NCBI RefSeq assembly: GCF_009928425.1
Contig: NZ_JAABNS010000001.1
Location: forward strand, 1,798,001 to 1,862,000
Direction: 5' to 3'
Source of the DNA: Pseudarthrobacter sp. ATCC 49987
Lineage (GTDB): Bacteria > Actinomycetota > Actinomycetes > Actinomycetales > Micrococcaceae
Length of the DNA stretch: 64,000 nucleotides
The translations under genes were made by a program, and so were the position numbers. The notes under the pieces are model-generated. The model was not told where the DNA came from, made no database searches, and saw nothing but the letters and a program-made list of their open reading frames with translations. Shown here piece by piece: positions 8,566 through 55,491 of the stretch (positions within the stretch are counted from its first letter, which is position 1; every line of letters starts with the position of its first letter).

Positions 8566-11550
8566 TTAGGCCAGGATGTCCGCCAGGAAGGCAGCCGTGT
8601 GGCTTTCCGTGGACTTGGCGACATGTTCCGGGGTTCCCGAGGCGACGATCCGGCCGCCGCCGGATCCGCCGTCCGGCCCCAGATCGACGATCCAGTCCGC
8701 GCTCTTGATGACATCAAGGTTGTGCTCGATCGTGATGACGGTGTTGCCCTTGTCCACGAGGCCCTGGAGGACCAGCAGCAGCTTCCGGATGTCCTCGAAG
8801 TGCAGGCCGGTGGTGGGCTCGTCCAGGACGTAGATGCTGCGGCCGTTGGAGCGCTTCTGCAGCTCGGCCGCGAGCTTCACGCGCTGCGCCTCGCCGCCGG
8901 AGAGCGTCGTCGCGGGCTGGCCCAGCCGGACATAGCCGAGTCCGACGTCGACGAGGGTGCGCAGGTGCCGGGCGATCGGCGTGAACGCCGCGAAGAACTC
9001 CGCGCCTTCCTCGATCGGCATATTCAGCACGTCGGCGATCGTCTTGCCCTTGTAGTGGACTTCCAGGGTTTCGCGGTTGTACCGGGCACCGTGGCACACC
9101 TCGCAGGGCACGTAGACGTCCGGCAGGAAGTTCATTTCGATCTTCAGCGTGCCGTCACCCGAGCAGGCCTCGCAGCGTCCGCCCTTGACGTTGAAGGAGA
9201 ACCGTCCCGGCAGGTAGCCGCGGACCTTGGCCTCGGTGGTGTCGGCGAACAGCTTGCGGATGTTGTCAAAGACGCCCGTGTAGGTGGCCGGGTTGGACCG
9301 CGGGGTGCGGCCGATGGGGCTCTGGTCGACGTGGACCACCTTATCGAGGTGTTCGAGCCCCTGGATGGACTTGTGCCGGCCCGCCACTTGCTTGGCGCCG
9401 TTGAGCTTGTTGGCCAGGACCTTGTAGAGGATCTCGTTGACCAGTGTGGACTTGCCCGAGCCGCTGACGCCGGTCACCGCGGTAAACAGTCCAAGCGGGA
9501 AGGTGGCATCCACGTTCAGGAGGTTGTTCTCCTTGGCGCCGACGACCTTCAGCTCACGCTTCTTGTCGTATTTGCGCCGCTTTTTGGGGATCTCAATCTT
9601 TTTCCGGCCGGAGAGGTAGTCGCCGGTGAGGGATTCGGTGTTCTCGAGCAGGTCCTTGTAGGAACCCGAGTGCACCACCATGCCGCCGTGTTCGCCGGCA
9701 CCCGGTCCGATATCCACCACCCAGTCGGCTTCCTGGATGGTGTCCTCATCGTGTTCCACCACGATCAGGGTGTTGCCGAGGTCCCGCAGCCGGGTCAGGG
9801 TTTCGATCAGGCGGCGGTTGTCGCGCTGGTGCAGGCCGATCGACGGCTCGTCCAGGACGTAGAGCACACCCACGAGGCCGGAGCCGATCTGGGTGGCCAG
9901 CCGGATGCGCTGGGCTTCGCCGCCGGACAGGGTGCCGGAAGGCCGCTCCAGATTCAGGTACTCCAGCCCGACGTCGAGCAGGAAGGTCAGACGGGCCTGG
10001 ATCTCCTTGAGGACCTGGTTCGCGATCTGGGCTTCGCGGCCGCTGAGTACGAGGTTGTCCAGGAAGTGGGCGCACTCGCGCATCGGCAGGGCGGCGACTT
10101 CGGCAATGGATTTGCCGTTGATCAGGACCGAGAGCGACGCCGGGTTCAGGCGTGCGCCGTTGCAGGCCGGGCACGGGATCTGCCGCATGTACTCCTCGTA
10201 GCGGTCCCGGGCCGAGTCCGAGTCCGTCTCGAGGTGTTTGCGGTGGACGTACTGGATGACGCCCTCGAAGCCTGTGCTGTATTTGCGTTCCCGGCCGAAG
10301 CGGTTGCGGTACTGCACCACAACTTTATGGTCCTTGCCGTGCAGCACGGTTTGGCGGGTGTCCTCGGAGAGCTTGTCCCACGGGGTTGTCATCGAGAAAC
10401 CGAGTTCCTTGGCGAGTCCGCCGAGCAAACGGTTCCAGTATTCTGTGGTTGCTGTGCCGAGTGACCAGGGGGCGATTGCTCCCTCCGAGAGGGACAGCTC
10501 ACCGTTCGGAATGATGAGTTCCTCATCGACCTCGAGCTTCGTGCCGATGCCGCTACAGGCCGAGCACGCGCCGAAGGGGTTGTTGAAGGAGAAGGAGCGC
10601 GGTTCGATCTCATCGATCGCGAGCGGGTGCTCATTGGGGCAGGCAAGGTTTTCGGAGAACGCCCTGATGCGTTCGGGATCGTCAGCGTCGAGGTCGACGA
10701 ATTCAGCGAGAATGCGTCCTTCGGCCAGGCCGAGGGCGGTTTCCACCGAGTCGGTGAGTCGCTGGCTGATGCCCTCCTTGACCACGAGGCGGTCCACGAC
10801 CACTTCGATGGTGTGCTTGAACTGTTTGCCCAGCTTGGGCGGATCGCTGAGCTGGATCAGCTTGTCATCGACCCGGGCGCGCGAGTAGCCCTTGGCAGTG
10901 AGTTCCTTGAACAGCTCGACGAATTCGCCCTTGCGGCCACGGACCACCGGGGCCAGGATCTGGAAGCGGGTCCCCTCGGGCAGTTCCAGCAGCTGGTCGA
11001 CGATCTGCTGCGGGGTCTGCTTCGCGACGGGCTCGCCGCAGACCGGGCAGTGCGGGCGGCCGACCCGGGCCCACAGGAGACGCATGTAGTCGTAGATCTC
11101 GGTGATGGTGCCCACCGTGGAGCGCGGGTTCTTGCTGGTGGACTTCTGGTCAATGGATACAGCGGGCGAGAGTCCCTCGATGAAGTCGACGTCGGGCTTG
11201 TCCACCTGTCCCAGGAACTGCCGGGCGTAGGCGGAGAGGGATTCGACGTAGCGGCGCTGGCCCTCGGCGAAAATCGTGTCGAACGCAAGGGAGGACTTGC
11301 CCGAGCCGGAGAGCCCCGTGAAGACGATCATGGAATCGCGGGGCAAGTCCAGGTCGACGTTGCGCAGGTTGTGTTCCCGCGCGCCTTTGACGACGAGCCG
11401 GGACATGTCCGGGCGCTTCACCGCGGGGCGGGAGTCCTCCCCGCGGCCGGGTTTTGCCGGACTCATCGGAACGGAGCCCATCGGGACGGAGCCCATTTGA
11501 ACGGAGGGCTGGGAATCAACGGCTGGATCTTCAGCTACGGCTTTAGGCAC
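8566..11550 (-). CDS. uvrA: UvrABC excinuclease subunit A
   Basis: The 994-residue damage-sensing ABC-type ATPase of nucleotide excision repair has two nucleotide-binding domains (Walker [10 protein letters not shown] and GVSGSGKST), two LSGGEAQR signatures and zinc modules ([13 protein letters not shown] with CEVCHG). Frame and length with the GTG at 11550 include a 48-residue N-terminal extension before the family start at M49 ([17 protein letters not shown]). The extension contains a [13 protein letters not shown] repeat, so the ATG at 11406 is an alternative start. A LexA-like box lies 14 bases before the GTG. Confidence 0.97.
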
Positions 11551-27239: not shown

Positions 27240-27938
27240 GTGGCTGATGATGCGGTTTTCCCGGAGAGCAGGGCCACCGTTTACACCACGCTGGCGGCAG
27301 GCCTGGAGTTCCGCCACGAGCTCGAGGTCAAACGCTCCCGCTTCATCACCGTGCTGCACCGCACCGCGGACGAGGAGAGCGCACGGTCGGTCCTGGCCGG
27401 GCTGCGCCGGGAATTTTACGACGCGCGGCACCACTGCTCCGCGTTCGTGCTCGGTCCGGACCGCGACGTCCAGCGCTCCAACGACGATGGCGAGCCGTCC
27501 GGCACCGCGGGCATCCCGATGCTCGATGCGCTGCTGAAACGCGAAAGCGCGCCCGGTGTCACTGACCTCAGCGACGTGACCGCCGTCGTGGTGCGGTACT
27601 TCGGCGGGATCCTGCTCGGCGCCGGCGGACTGGTCCGGGCCTACTCGGAATCCGTGTCCGCGGCACTGGACCGGGCGCCGCTGGTGCAACGCCGGCGGCT
27701 GCGGATCTGCTCGGTCACCGTTCCGCACACTGCGGCCGGGCGGCTGGAAAATGACCTGCGCGCCGCGGGATATGTCATGGCCGAAACCAGTTACGAGGCG
27801 CAAACTACTGTCCTGAGGTTAGCCCTGCCGGATGATCCGGCAGATCTTGCCCGGGCGGCCGAACGGCTCGCCGCCTTGTCTGCCGGAACCGCCGAATTGC
27901 TGCCTGGAGAAACGGAGTGGATCGATGTCCCGCACTGA
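27240..27938 (+). CDS. YigZ/IMPACT family protein
   Basis: The 232-residue protein has the UPF0029/IMPACT signature DDGEPSGTAGIPMLDALL near residues 82-99, plus YFGGILLGAGGLVRAY. A ferredoxin-like DUF1949 region lies at the C-terminus. Bacterial members such as YigZ and YvyE are linked to translation or ribosome-associated functions by structure only. The start is GTG. It overlaps the following GNAT gene by 14 bases. Confidence 0.88.
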   Translation: MADDAVFPESRATVYTTLAAGLEFRHELEVKRSRFITVLHRTADEESARSVLAGLRREFYDARHHCSAFVLGPDRDVQRSNDDGEPSGTAGIPMLDALLKRESAPGVTDLSDVTAVVVRYFGGILLGAGGLVRAYSESVSAALDRAPLVQRRRLRICSVTVPHTAAGRLENDLRAAGYVMAETSYEAQTTVLRLALPDDPADLARAAERLAALSAGTAELLPGETEWIDVPH

Positions 27939-28464
27939 GTCCTCCGATGCCGCTGAGCCCACCCCCGCCGCTGTCCGCCTCGTCGATGTCTCCGAGGCGG
28001 TCCTGGAGCAACTCCTGACCGTGGCGATCCAGGACGCCGACGCCGACGAGGTAACCCCTCCCCTGGGCAGCGCCGCCGGCTGGAACTCGGACCGGATCAG
28101 CTGGTTCCGCGAATACCACCATGCGGCGGCCGGACTCGACGGGCCTGCACAGCAGAAGAGCTGGGCCATCAGCTCCGACGGGGAACTGGCAGGATCCATC
28201 CGGCTCAAGCGGACCGGGGCAGGCGCGCTGGAAACAGGAATCTGGCTCGGCCGCAGCTTCCGGGGCAGGGGCATCGCCCGGGAGGCCCTTCGCCTCGTGA
28301 TCGACCGGGCCGCGGCGTCCGGGGCTTCGGTGCTGGAGGCCGACACAACGGCCGGGAATGCCGCGGCACTGGTCCTCCTGCGCTCAGCCGGGGCCGAGCT
28401 GGAGGAAGGCGAAGCCTCCGATGCCGCCGCGGTCCCGGTCAAGGCCAGGATCGCGCTGCGCTAG
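27925..28464 (+). CDS. GNAT acetyltransferase (RimJ/RimL-like)
   Basis: The open frame extends upstream, but the ATG at 27925 (MSRTESSDAAEPTP) inside the end of YigZ is the sensible start, giving 179 residues. GNAT features are SWAISSDGELAGSIRL, ETGIWLGRSFRGRGIAREALRLVI (acetyl-CoA loop) and EADTTAGNAAALVLLRSAG. The fold suggests N-terminal or small-molecule acetylation; the substrate is unknown. It is the last plus-strand gene before the repeat-filled gap. Confidence 0.83.
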   Translation: MSRTESSDAAEPTPAAVRLVDVSEAVLEQLLTVAIQDADADEVTPPLGSAAGWNSDRISWFREYHHAAAGLDGPAQQKSWAISSDGELAGSIRLKRTGAGALETGIWLGRSFRGRGIAREALRLVIDRAAASGASVLEADTTAGNAAALVLLRSAGAELEEGEASDAAAVPVKARIALR

Positions 28465-28471
28465 GGTCCGC

Positions 28472-28840
28472 GTGCCCACCCGCCCGGCCCGCCACTGGAC
28501 ATGCCCCGTGCATGGCCACGAAGCCACCGGGGGACATGCCACACGCTGGCCGCAGACCTTGGACTTAGTCCCATTGTGCCCACCCGCAGGCGCCACGACT
28601 GGACATGTCCCGTGCTGGGCCTCGCGTCCAAGGACTGCACATGCCCCACGCTGGCCGCAGACCTTGGACATAGTCCCATTGTGCCCACCCGCCGGGGCCA
28701 AAGTTGGACATGTCCCGTTCTGGGCTTCGCGTCCAAGGACGGCACATGCCCCACGCTGGCCCCAGACCTTGGACATAGTCCCACTGTGCCCACCCGCACG
28801 CGCCACGACTGGACATGTCCCCGCCCATGGCTACGTGGCC
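28472..28840. repeat. 105-bp tandem array of palindromic GGRCATG elements
   Basis: Three tandem units start at 28472 (104 bp), 28576 and 28681 (105 bp each), with a partial fourth at 28786. Each begins GTGCCCACCCGC and ends in GGACATAGTCCCAYT. The second and third differ at about 11 positions, six of them in a 13-bp segment just before GGACATGTCC. Within the array are three full copies of an 81-bp symmetric element (28531-28611, 28636-28716, 28741-28821), each with boxes at +1, +30 and +70; a half copy lies at 28497. Because 105 is a multiple of three, several frames are open on both strands. Confidence 0.9.
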
Positions 28841-28870
28841 GCGGCCGCAATTTCACCCGGCGTCGTCGAC

Positions 28871-29017
28871 CTAGATGGTGGACTGCATCCGGGCACCTGC
28901 CTCGAGGGAAGCCGCCACGGCGAGGACTACGAGTTCCGGTGCTTTTGAGGAATTCAGCACGTTGATCGGGGTGTTCTCGAACTTGAACTCAGTCGAGGCA
29001 TCATCGTCGAATGCCGC
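28871..29017 (-). pseudogene. Possible 3' remnant of an unidentified gene
   Basis: On the minus strand, the stretch ending at the TAG (28871-28873) encodes about 48 residues with coding-like codon choice and ordinary protein composition (AAFDDDASTEFKFEN; APELVVLAVAASLEAGA). Upstream, the frame runs straight into the palindromic repeats, where it becomes Cys/His/Trp-rich and implausible. This looks like the C-terminal end of a lost gene whose 5' boundary coincides with an element at 29018. I do not recognise the family. Confidence 0.35.
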
Positions 29018-29098
29018 CGGACATGCTCCCCCGTAGGGAATGCGAAAGGACATAGTGGCCACATGTCCGACGTCGGGAGCCGGAACTGGACATGTCCC
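29018..29098. repeat. Palindromic GGRCATG element, copy 4
   Basis: This is a single 81-bp copy with left box GGACATG at 29019, a core beginning GGACATA at 29048 and ending ATGTCC at 29068, and right box GGACATGTCCC at 29088-29098. The box offsets (29 and 40 bases) equal those of the tandem array and the 50-kb copy. The outer boxes and core share the centre 29058. Confidence 0.85.
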
Positions 29099-29162
29099 CT
29101 CGCCGCGACCAGCCGGCGGCCGGGCATGCTCCCCCGGCGCGGCACGGAACCACCAGCAGCTC

Positions 29163-29243
29163 TGGGCATGTCCCGCCCCAGGCCCGAAGGTTGGACATAG
29201 AGCCCACATGTTCAATGGCAGCACCCACCACTGGGCATGCCCC
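29163..29243. repeat. Palindromic GGRCATG element, copy 5, with duplicated right box
   Basis: The left box is GGGCATGTCCC at 29164, the core runs from GGACATA at 29193 to ATGTTC at 29213, and the right box GGGCATGCCCC starts at 29233. The symmetry centre is 29203. The right-box region is duplicated 33 bases downstream: a 21-base direct repeat starting CAGCACCCACC occupies 29219-29239 and 29252-29272. Another GGGCATG box lies at 29295. Confidence 0.82.
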
Positions 29244-29273
29244 CCTGGGCACAGCACCCACCACTGGGCATGT

Positions 29274-29297
29274 CCCCGTGGGCCTAAACCCACGGGG
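29274..29297. terminator. Perfect 9-bp hairpin in the repeat region
   Basis: CCCCGTGGG (29274-29282) and CCCACGGGG (29289-29297) form a perfect stem with loop CCTAAA. It lies between palindromic boxes, downstream of rpsA on the minus strand. Terminator function is possible, but it may simply be part of the repeat family. Confidence 0.45.
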
Positions 29298-29315
29298 CAT
29301 GTCCCACAACGCAAA

Positions 29316-29341
29316 GTGGCCGCCCCCACAGGGACGGCCAC
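29316..29341 (-). terminator. rpsA terminator candidate
   Basis: On the minus strand, GTGGCCG and CGGCCAC form a perfect 7-bp stem with a 12-base loop, followed by TTTGCGTT. It is about 70 bases past the rpsA stop and is the best intrinsic-terminator candidate for that gene, with a short T-run. Confidence 0.55.
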
Positions 29342-29367
29342 CTTGACGGTGCTACTTCAAGCTACGA

Positions 29368-29412
29368 ACTGCCAAGCCCCGGGGATCGTACTCCCCGGGA
29401 ACCAGTGGCAGT
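29368..29412 (-). terminator. Long two-part hairpin reaching into the rpsA stop codon
   Basis: The inner stem pairs CCCGGGGA (29378-29385) with TCCCCGGG (29392-29399), perfect over 8 bp with a 6-base loop. An outer stem pairs ACTGCCA (29368-29374) with TGGCAGT (29406-29412). The outer arm ends at the last base of the rpsA TAA. There is no T-run, so 3'-end protection or termination assistance are both possible. Confidence 0.55.
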
Positions 29413-30893
29413 TAGTTGCCGGTCAGCTTCTCGCGCAGTGCTGCAAGAGCCTCGTCTGAAGCGAGCGTGCCGCCACCGGTGGTGGACTCGGCTGCAGCCG
29501 GCTCGGAGGAGTAGCTGGTGGTGCCGGAGTCGCTCTCACCGGACGTTGCAGCTGCAGCGTCGTCGGCAGCGTGCTGGGCAACCTGCTTCTTGTGGGCTTC
29601 CCAGCGGGTCTGGGCGTCAGCGTACTGCTGCTCCCAGGCGGCGCGCTGCGTCTCGTAGCCTTCAAGCCACTCGTTGGACTCCGGATCGAAGCCCTCCGGG
29701 TACTTGTAGTTGCCCTCTTCGTCGTACTCAGCGGCCATGCCGTAGAGAGCCGGGTCGAATTCGGTGGACTCGGCGTCGACGCCCTCGTTGGCCTGCTTGA
29801 GGGACAGCGAGATGCGGCGGCGTTCGAGGTCGATGTCGATGACCTTGACGAACAGCTCGTCACCAACGGAGACAACCTGCTCGGCCAGCTCAACGTGGCG
29901 CACGGCGAGCTCGGAGATGTGGACCAGGCCTTCGATGCCGTCTTCAACGCGAACGAACGCGCCGAACGGAACCAGCTTGGTGACCTTACCCGGAACAACC
30001 TGCCCGAGGGCGTGGGTGCGGGCGAAGGTCTGCCACGGATCTTCCTGCGTAGCCTTGAGCGACAGGGACACACGCTCGCGGTCCAGGTCGACCTCGAGGA
30101 CCTCGACGGTGACTTCCTGGCCAACTTCGACAACCTCGGACGGGTGGTCGATGTGCTTCCAGGACAGCTCGGAAACGTGAACGAGGCCGTCTACGCCGCC
30201 CAGGTCCACGAAGGCACCAAAGTTGACGATGGAGGAAACGACGCCGGGACGAACCTGGCCCTTTTCCAGCTTGTTGAGGAACGTGGAGCGGACCTCGGAC
30301 TGGGTCTGCTCGAGCCATGCACGGCGGGACAGCACAACGTTGTTGCGGTTCTTGTCCAGCTCGATGATTTTGGCTTCGATCTTCTGACCGATGTACGGAG
30401 CAAGGTCGCGCACACGCCGCATCTCGACGAGGGATGCGGGCAGGAAGCCGCGCAGACCGATGTCGAGGATAAGACCACCCTTGACAACCTCGATGACGGT
30501 ACCGGTGACGACACCGTCTTCTTCCTTGACCTTCTCGATGTCGCCCCAGGCACGCTCGTACTGAGCGCGCTTCTTGGAGAGGATCAGGCGGCCTTCTTTG
30601 TCTTCCTTGGTGAGCACCAGGGCTTCGACGAGATCGCCAACGGAGACGACGTCTCCGGGATCAACGTCGTGCTTGATGGACAGCTCGCGGGAGGGAATGA
30701 CACCTTCGGTCTTGTAACCGATGTCGAGCAGAACTTCGTCGCGGTCGACCTTGACGACGGTACCTTCGACGAGGTCTCCGTCGTTGAAGTACTTGATGGT
30801 GGCGTCGACTGCTGCGAGGAAGTCCTCAGCGGTACCGATGTCGTTAATAGCGACTACGGGGGTACCGGGCTTCTCGGTGGAGGTGATGGTCAT
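29412..30893 (-). CDS. rpsA: 30S ribosomal protein S1
   Basis: The 493-residue S1 has four S1/OB-fold RNA-binding repeats (near 37-106, 120-188, 208-276 and 293-362) and an acidic, disordered C-terminal tail rich in Ala, Ser and Thr. S1 recruits mRNA to the 30S subunit. Four repeats and this length are usual for actinobacteria, against six in E. coli. The ATG is preceded by GGAG about 10 bases upstream. A promoter-like pair and a hairpin lie in the 210-base leader region. Confidence 0.97.
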   Translation of the reverse strand: MTITSTEKPGTPVVAINDIGTAEDFLAAVDATIKYFNDGDLVEGTVVKVDRDEVLLDIGYKTEGVIPSRELSIKHDVDPGDVVSVGDLVEALVLTKEDKEGRLILSKKRAQYERAWGDIEKVKEEDGVVTGTVIEVVKGGLILDIGLRGFLPASLVEMRRVRDLAPYIGQKIEAKIIELDKNRNNVVLSRRAWLEQTQSEVRSTFLNKLEKGQVRPGVVSSIVNFGAFVDLGGVDGLVHVSELSWKHIDHPSEVVEVGQEVTVEVLEVDLDRERVSLSLKATQEDPWQTFARTHALGQVVPGKVTKLVPFGAFVRVEDGIEGLVHISELAVRHVELAEQVVSVGDELFVKVIDIDLERRRISLSLKQANEGVDAESTEFDPALYGMAAEYDEEGNYKYPEGFDPESNEWLEGYETQRAAWEQQYADAQTRWEAHKKQVAQHAADDAAAATSGESDSGTTSYSSEPAAAESTTGGGTLASDEALAALREKLTGN

Positions 30894-49987: not shown

Positions 49988-50068
49988 GGGACATGCCCCA
50001 CCCTGGCCGCGGCCACTGGACATAATGCCTATATGTCCATCCGTGGGCACAAGAGGAGGGCATGTCCC
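49988..50068. repeat. Palindromic GGRCATG element, copy 6 (distant)
   Basis: The left box GGGACATGCCC starts at 49988, the core runs GGACATA (50018) to TATGTCC (50038), and the right box GGGCATGTCCC occupies 50058-50068. All are symmetric about 50028; the outer inverted repeat extends with CCCC/GGGG to 49982-50074. The segment CCCCACSCTGGCCGC next to the left box is shared with the 28.5-kb array, with identical spacing. It lies between the convergent stops of the YdeP-type and DUF6457 genes and may also act as a terminator. Confidence 0.9.

Positions 50069-53101: not shown

Positions 53102-55491
<2,390 letters not shown>

Follow-up and report, generated by a model that had tools for sequence, protein, structure and literature searches.

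A dispersed 79-bp palindromic element of Arthrobacter and Pseudarthrobacter and its probable pairing with an AbiEi/Vsr-like nuclease gene

Introduction

The best-known short bacterial repeat that lives with an enzyme of its own is the REPIN, which is partnered by the RAYT. Palindromic sites are also found in the nucleoid, where they are bound by SlmA, Noc and MatP, and Vsr acts in mismatch repair. Binding to several inverted repeats has been described for proteins related to AbiEi, the antitoxin of a type IV toxin-antitoxin (TA) system; the targets of Rv2827c are four inverted repeats that lie upstream of its own gene, and the cooperativity of binding is positive for AbiEi and negative for Rv2827c (PMC7319586). 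The genus treated here is present in the RepRanger paper as one table row, that of Arthrobacter livingstonensis (PMC12306157).

Here we describe a compound palindromic element that is scattered through genomes of this group. We consider it likely that the elements are the dispersed duplex binding arrays of the product of a clade-specific AbiEi/Vsr-like nuclease gene, and that array and gene form a pair resembling that of REPIN and RAYT. The window referred to below is the whole stretch of 64,000 nucleotides that was analysed (G000:C1:1798001-1862000, where G000 is its own genome).

Architecture and distribution of the element

The element is 79 bp long and reads GGACATGCCC-19 nt-GGACATA-N7-TATGTCC-19 nt-GGGCATGTCC, i.e., it is made up of an outer palindrome, a core dyad and a second outer palindrome, with symmetry about the core. 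A preliminary description had listed five copies in the window, with the core 29 bases after the left box and the right box 40 bases further on, and re-reading of the sequence reproduced both positions and spacing (Table 1). It had also held that every copy carries GGRCATG boxes around a GGACATA core; this is true of the layout, but 3 of the 15 boxes deviate in sequence, those at 28637 and 28742 being GCACATG and the core at 28561 being GGACTTA. Because of these deviations the strict pattern fits only the copies at 29019 and 29164 among those listed. It also fits an unlisted copy at 49989-50067, on both strands, and gave 0 matches in 100 shuffles.

Table 1. Repeat elements, satellite boxes and nearby genes (positions in the window unless a contig is named)
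Feature	Position	Strand	Remarks
Element copy 1	28532..28610	no strand	4 of the 34 specified positions mismatched
Element copy 2	28637..28715	no strand	3 mismatches
Element copy 3	28742..28820	no strand	3 mismatches
105-bp tandem repeat	28472-28821		contains element copies 1-3
Element copy 4	29019..29097	no strand	2 mismatches
Element copy 5	29164..29242	no strand	2 mismatches
Element copy 6	49989..50067	no strand	perfect match; convergent genes either side; absent from the preliminary description
Satellite palindromic box	28497..28506		outside elements
Satellite box, imperfect palindrome	29122..29131		outside elements
Satellite box	29266..29275		33 bp after preceding box
Satellite box	29295..29304		29 bp beyond box 29266..29275
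Left neighbour gene	27925..28464	+	convergent; no NCBIfam match, GNAT-like on reading alone; in-house start, ORF open from 27832
Right neighbour gene, 30S ribosomal protein S1 (rpsA)	29412..30893	-	convergent; NF005911, 946 bits
G+C-rich hairpin	29313..29345	-	in the gap that separates rpsA from the elements, directly after the rpsA stop codon; by eye
Class I nuclease gene, own genome	G000:C1:812550-813356		outside the window; beside typA, between two arrays

Genomes were scanned with up to 3 mismatches allowed across the 34 specified positions and with the reversed pattern as a control. The own genome (4.4 Mb) contains 31 such places, five of them inside the window, against 0 for the control, which bears out the suggestion of a genuine multicopy family with conserved spacing; the window copy at 28532, with 4 mismatches, lies outside the 31. 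These copies are spread all round the chromosome. Sites of the own genome that were found through the exact core alone had both boxes at the same spacing in 5/5 distinct cases. When the core was ignored, box-to-box distances in the loci examined were 69 bp in 91 cases, 68 bp in 2 and 70 bp in none, a count that is not fully independent as most of these loci were retrieved by a core-plus-one-box pattern. The window also has two solitary palindromic boxes, at 11401-11410 and 55425-55434, which read GGRCATG on both strands and lack the remaining parts of the element.

A scan of related genomes for copies, proposed at the outset, covered 198 genomes of the genus, and 51 of them have the strict half-pattern, in which the core is accompanied by a single box. 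A wider draw of 295 genomes from 32 genera of the family, with 1 mismatch allowed, gave 7 genomes of 2 genera, the second genus being represented by a single genome, G231. The half-pattern was missing from 6 genomes of other families, and 0 stretches with the core-plus-box pattern were found among viral contigs. The pattern scan returned at least 120 stretches, and Arthrobacter and Pseudarthrobacter are the hosts named among the matches listed. An element is also present on a contig titled Ramlibacter (L117), which is probably a binning error. Ten other element-bearing genomes have 10 to 41 places each at up to 3 mismatches, the counts per genome being complete. The strict pattern overlooks diverged sets, since G053 scores 0 with it yet has 20 places at up to 3 mismatches. 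G115, G030, G069 and G119 remain at 0 even so; the zero of G030 is explained by a core spacer of 6 rather than 7. Rescanning 12 genomes negative for both the strict pattern and the class I gene described below, at up to 3 mismatches under the N7 model, found none.

Helical phasing and conservation

The arrangement of boxes around the elements follows the turn of the double helix. Distances from satellite boxes to outer boxes cluster at 22-23, 32-33, 42-43, 52, 61-64, 93 and 103-105 bp, with a best period of 10.2 bp (n=305, R 0.61), and the spacing from element to element in tandems has a similar phase of about 10.2 bp (n=85, R 0.57). With each distance counted once, at 10.5 bp, p is 2e-3 for the satellite boxes and 4e-4 for the element-to-element spacing; smaller phasing p-values are inflated because the copies are related. 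Out-of-phase peaks also occur among the satellite distances, at 29 bp (13) and 35 bp (11). A constant helical phase points to a protein on duplex DNA, as is expected for such binding, and the multi-site protein target that the preliminary description had put forward is therefore likely.

The spacers have a symmetric consensus, the half-element reading approximately GGACATGCCCa.CccT.G...C.A.gAaTGGACATAgTgc, and extended palindromes were noticed in G012 and G005. Base-pair covariation was sought in the spacers of 173 elements thinned to 91, and none was found; the best register within a spacer reached z 2.9 (3 pairs) and the best between left and right spacers z 2.2. Six positions beside the core have a mild surplus of pairs, 292 where 258 would be expected. 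A separate pair count left out 2 of 137 cores because their boxes were out of place. The boxes and core are silent on covariation because they are nearly invariant. An Rfam search of the window gave 0 matches. The folded RNA or DNA structure that had also been proposed is thus not borne out, and the elements look like duplex DNA bound by protein, not folded RNA.

Orthologous intergenic regions were identified by synteny at 6 sites, with both neighbours required to be more than 60% identical. At least 1 element is present in 22/22 of these regions, and the number of copies per site varies. Identity over 7 orthologous pairs (one of three tandem copies being chosen at site L042) is 0.95 in the boxes, 0.89 in the core arms, 0.61 in the spacers and 0.40 in the flanks, compared with 0.48 in the spacers and 0.37 in the flanks of unrelated copies from the own genome (210 pairs). 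The boxes, at 0.95 against 0.40 for the flanks, have been held in place while their surroundings came near saturation. The sites are so stable across species that ongoing mobility is not visible, and no dated empty site was found.

A nuclease gene between two arrays

When the genes adjacent to elements were grouped, one family emerged with elements on both sides. Its class I protein has 269 aa and is made up of an AbiEi-type winged helix (HTH) and a predicted Vsr-like (PD-(D/E)XK) endonuclease domain. AbiEi_4 (PF13338) is matched by 16/16 homologues at E<=0.01 (best 9.5e-9), and MTES_1575 by 15/16 at the same cut-off, in matches that are weak but consistent; that of the L109 protein scores 33.1 bits, under the 38.2-bit cut-off. 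DUF559 is matched weakly by 6/16. In the nuclease part, E172, D199, E209, D211, H216, D225, R228 and N230 are invariant across the 16 homologues, whose identity goes down to 32%. The median dN/dS is 0.11 (330 pairs with dS<1.5), which indicates purifying selection. A search of PDB sequences with the protein gave no match, and a PDB profile search gave only rows at E 0.34-0.5, with V-type ATPase subunits on top and, in the next rows, two abortive-infection proteins aligned on the N-terminal domain. Public sources name such proteins 'type IV TA AbiEi antitoxin domain-containing protein' or very-short-patch-repair protein. Homologues were matched in 14 of 31 sampled genera of the family, and typA (TIGR01394) is near the gene in 38/39 class I and 16/16 class II loci.

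Upstream of the nuclease genes there is a further motif, TTNTNCACATAG, which in many homologues takes the DnaA-box-like form TTGTCCACA. It stands about 60 nt before the start codon at a nearly constant distance (e.g., L109, L224 and L271). CACATA occurs at -70..-45 in 55 of 78 nuclease loci, some genomes being present twice among the 78, compared with 6 of 663 other genes.

Of 35 class I loci, 32 have boxes both upstream and downstream of the gene, and the remaining three have them on a single side. The two-sided arrangement was found at 12 of 511 other genes, in loci selected for elements, and at 0 of 48 genes in the window. Loci of genomes present twice were excluded from these tallies, and the comparisons of upstream with downstream flanks given below also dropped loci with short flanks. 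Scored over the 198 genomes, 46 have both gene and elements, 5 have elements only, 3 have the class I gene only and 144 have neither; the three scored as gene only do carry elements on closer look. The gene is thus present in 46 of 51 element-bearing genomes against 3 of 147 others, and it is broken in 3 of the 46. The Fisher p of 1e-35 applies to the genomes as scored and ignores relatedness, a caution required because the class I gene and the arrays are each a trait of clades.

The five element-bearing genomes in which no class I gene was found (G049, G051, G078, G137 and G140) have best matches at E 1e-19 to 1e-43, and two of them are less than 85% complete while one has 7% contamination. 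In four of the five, some 1.5 kb around typA held no gene and no boxes, one of these loci being truncated by a contig end; a short gene remnant may be present in these genomes. In G056, G198 and G151 (L316, L317 and L235) the nuclease gene appears to be split over two frames or broken, and the arrays remain, with 37 places in G056 and 10 in G198 at up to 3 mismatches. In G231, the representative of another genus, the sole nuclease match is interrupted by a contig end and begins 110 bp from an element of the same layout, with typA on the same contig. The protein is nearer to class I (44-51 of 88) than to class II (31-40 of 88-89).

Co-variation of arrays with nuclease clades

The nuclease matches listed for the 198 genomes fall into two identity classes, after which identity drops to 38% and less. 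Among these matches, class I comprises 46 at 70% or more, a further two with frameshifts at 73-76% and a broken one at 63%, and class II lies at 48-55% (47-55% elsewhere). Class II loci have a palindrome of their own, of type TGYGCAGGGRCAGTCCCTGCRCA, on both sides in 7/16, on one side in 3/16 and on neither in 6/16, and this type was found beside class I genes in 0/39 loci. A scan of 14 class II genomes gave 67 places for it, against 4 for the reversed control, and 10 other genomes gave 13 places against 7 for the control. Its count does not exceed background in several of the class II genomes (G139, G092 and G133). There is also a subclass within class I. The core is of the N6 type in all four flanks of the nuclease genes of G030 and G097. 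Wherever a core is present in the flanks of the remaining class I genes, N7 fits best or equally well. G030 and G097 group together in the nuclease tree with moderate support (89/92), G097 being on a long branch.

Similarity of the upstream to the downstream flank exceeds z 4 in 7/16 class II loci and 11/17 distant loci, compared with 9/144 control genes. Each of the 11 distant homologue or paralogue loci with matching flanks has a private sequence, and several of these are plainly palindromic. A paralogue in the own genome (L271, G000:C1:462500-467500), 31% identical, has a different repeat of the GTGTCRAAGTGCCCC type on both sides, which was not seen elsewhere in 222 kb of that genome. In G211, two paralogues (L282 and L281) are flanked by different palindromes, GGTTGGTGAGCATAAGGCCTTATGCTCACCAACC and AGACCCATAACTGTTATGGGTCT.

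Proposed relationship and a host-protein alternative

The nuclease protein is the putative binder of the arrays, a role suggested by its neighbourhood and by co-variation. Its AbiEi-type domain would bind cooperatively to GGACAT half-sites that share one face of the helix; each element offers four of these, and the satellite boxes offer more. Several half-sites in each element would suit a family whose members bind sets of inverted repeats with positive or negative cooperativity. Arrays flanking the nuclease gene may serve to autoregulate it. Judging from the conserved residues, the protein is predicted to cleave, and its nuclease domain would nick or cut the arrays so that repair from another copy leads to local multiplication, i.e., tandem copies. 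On rare occasions the same cut-and-repair might establish an array at another intergenic position, which is the role proposed for RAYTs in the spread of REPINs. This spread is the weakest step of the proposal, because the sites are stable across species and the arrays persist where the gene is broken or was not found. More generally, we lean slightly toward the view that repeat/enzyme partnerships of another kind evolved in bacteria a second time, independently, and that in them each homologue keeps private duplex palindromic arrays on both sides of its gene, scattered over the genome in at least two classes, with homologues within one genome differing in their arrays.

Alternatively, the arrays may be sites of another chromosomal protein of the host, with a part in nucleoid organisation, replication or segregation, and the nuclease locus may be merely one settled site among them. 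The constancy of sites between species and the conserved boxes resemble host-level selection, sites lie all round the chromosome, and phasing reveals a binder, not its identity. A host role kept by selection would explain the stability of the sites at least as well, and it could coexist with the pairing. Nonetheless, we regard this as unlikely given that 144 of the 198 genomes of the genus have neither a strict match nor a class I gene, that the gene is so regularly flanked on both sides (also beside the homologue in another genus), and that other nuclease clades often have flanking palindromes of their own.

Genomic context and further alternatives

The position of the elements relative to genes bears on three other explanations. 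Context was counted over 80 listed stretches, the window and L032-L051, with genes called by an in-house script. Of 119 clusters, 44 lie between convergent genes, 48 between tandem genes and 9 between divergent genes, 6 overlap called genes and 12 are at locus ends; the last two groups were omitted from the orientation tally, which comprises 101 clusters. Gene junctions of 100 bp or more in these loci, element-bearing ones included, are convergent in 69 cases, tandem in 184 and divergent in 110 (n=363). Convergent enrichment has a p of 1.5e-6 and divergent depletion a p of 4.6e-6, with loci of related genomes counted separately. The region downstream of rpsA has elements in 15 of 17 class I genomes, the exceptions being G053 and G005, in both of which no GNAT-like neighbour was found. 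In the window, the G+C-rich hairpin of Table 1 is perhaps the rpsA terminator; a consensus terminator scan, which requires a T run, and a promoter scan found none in 28400-29500.

If the HTH protein were a regulator, the dispersed elements would be the operators of its regulon. It has an AbiEi_4 domain, there is an element upstream of its gene, and the promoters of AbiEi-family antitoxin genes contain sets of 23-bp inverted repeats to which the antitoxins themselves bind; autoregulation at the nuclease gene itself is possible. A regulon is very improbable all the same, since the elements avoid promoters, as the orientation tally makes clear. Slightly less credit again can be given to a non-autonomous transposon, whether a MITE or a REP/BIME moved by a Y1 transposase, even though the copies are intergenic, 3'-biased, many, palindromic and locally tandem. 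The associated Y1/REP-type transposase envisaged by the preliminary description did not materialise, as Y1_Tnp (PF01797) is present in 0/13 genomes whereas 5/14 control genomes are positive. Genes between neighbouring copies, searched for a transposase, are only ordinary-looking genes, and a Pfam scan of 10 neighbour families found no transposase; moreover, the internal core is conserved as well as the ends are, and sites are common to several species. Least probable of all is a folded RNA, either a transcription terminator or a 3'UTR hairpin, which would suit the position downstream of genes and the self-complementary core and boxes and has its single hint in the pair surplus beside the core, but which is opposed by spacers with no surplus Watson-Crick pairs, by the empty Rfam and terminator searches, and by a phase of about 10 bp that is without evident meaning for RNA.

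Comparison with known systems

The pair of array and nuclease gene, which we prefer to these alternatives, is like REP/REPIN-RAYT systems in several respects. As reported for those systems (PMC2817692; PMC3116915), the enzyme gene lies between two repeat copies, the arrangement of 32/35 class I loci here, repeat and enzyme co-vary, and either of them predicts the presence of the other; our own co-variation comparison covers two main classes and one subclass, with 6/16 class II loci lacking the palindrome. There are three differences. The RAYT is a Y1 (HUH) transposase, the defining mark of REP-RAYT systems, of which the 13 genomes searched have none, and the protein described here is a predicted AbiEi-HTH/Vsr-like endonuclease; REPs form stem-loops, where these elements look like phased duplex sites whose spacers show no covariation; and REPINs exceed 100 copies per genome, compared with tens here at the thresholds used (31 in the own genome, 10-41 in ten others). 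The REP/BIME-like character first suggested for the repeat thus holds for the enzyme gene between two copies, the co-variation and the co-occurrence, but not for the enzyme, which is unrelated to that of REPs.

Likeness to the AbiEi antitoxins of type IV TA systems lies in the N-terminal AbiEi winged helix and in several inverted repeats beside the gene, which in known members are bound by the protein, and the differences lie in the C-terminal Vsr-like nuclease domain and in sites that are dispersed genome-wide. AbiE toxin-antitoxin systems have an adjacent nucleotidyltransferase toxin, and the one small neighbouring gene scanned here (L049:5814-6200) had no Pfam match. The protein resembles the Vsr-like, DUF559 and MTES_1575 endonucleases through weak, consistent matches and through conserved acidic, His and Arg residues, and we found no report in the open-licence literature of dispersed palindromic arrays for them. 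Iteron arrays and nucleoid palindromes are similar in that phased or dispersed palindromic sites serve one protein, but the element described here is compound, with four half-sites in a fixed 79-bp layout, is patchy within the genus and is linked to a nuclease gene.

No description of a partnership between palindromic arrays and a nuclease was found in the open-licence literature, and with the reservation that this is the literature searched, the pairing of an AbiEi-HTH/Vsr-like nuclease with arrays appears to be new. It suggests what an intergenic repeat of Arthrobacter, nameless so far, is likely to be and, if true, it would give a first testable role to a family of proteins whose annotation at present goes no further than AbiEi antitoxin-domain or very-short-patch-repair protein. 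If any repeat/enzyme pair is taken to be of one kind with REPIN and RAYT, the array and nuclease described here are a variant of that kind; if the proposal is true, they would be a convergent pair built on another enzyme and on helically phased duplex sites, and such partnerships would be a recurrent outcome.
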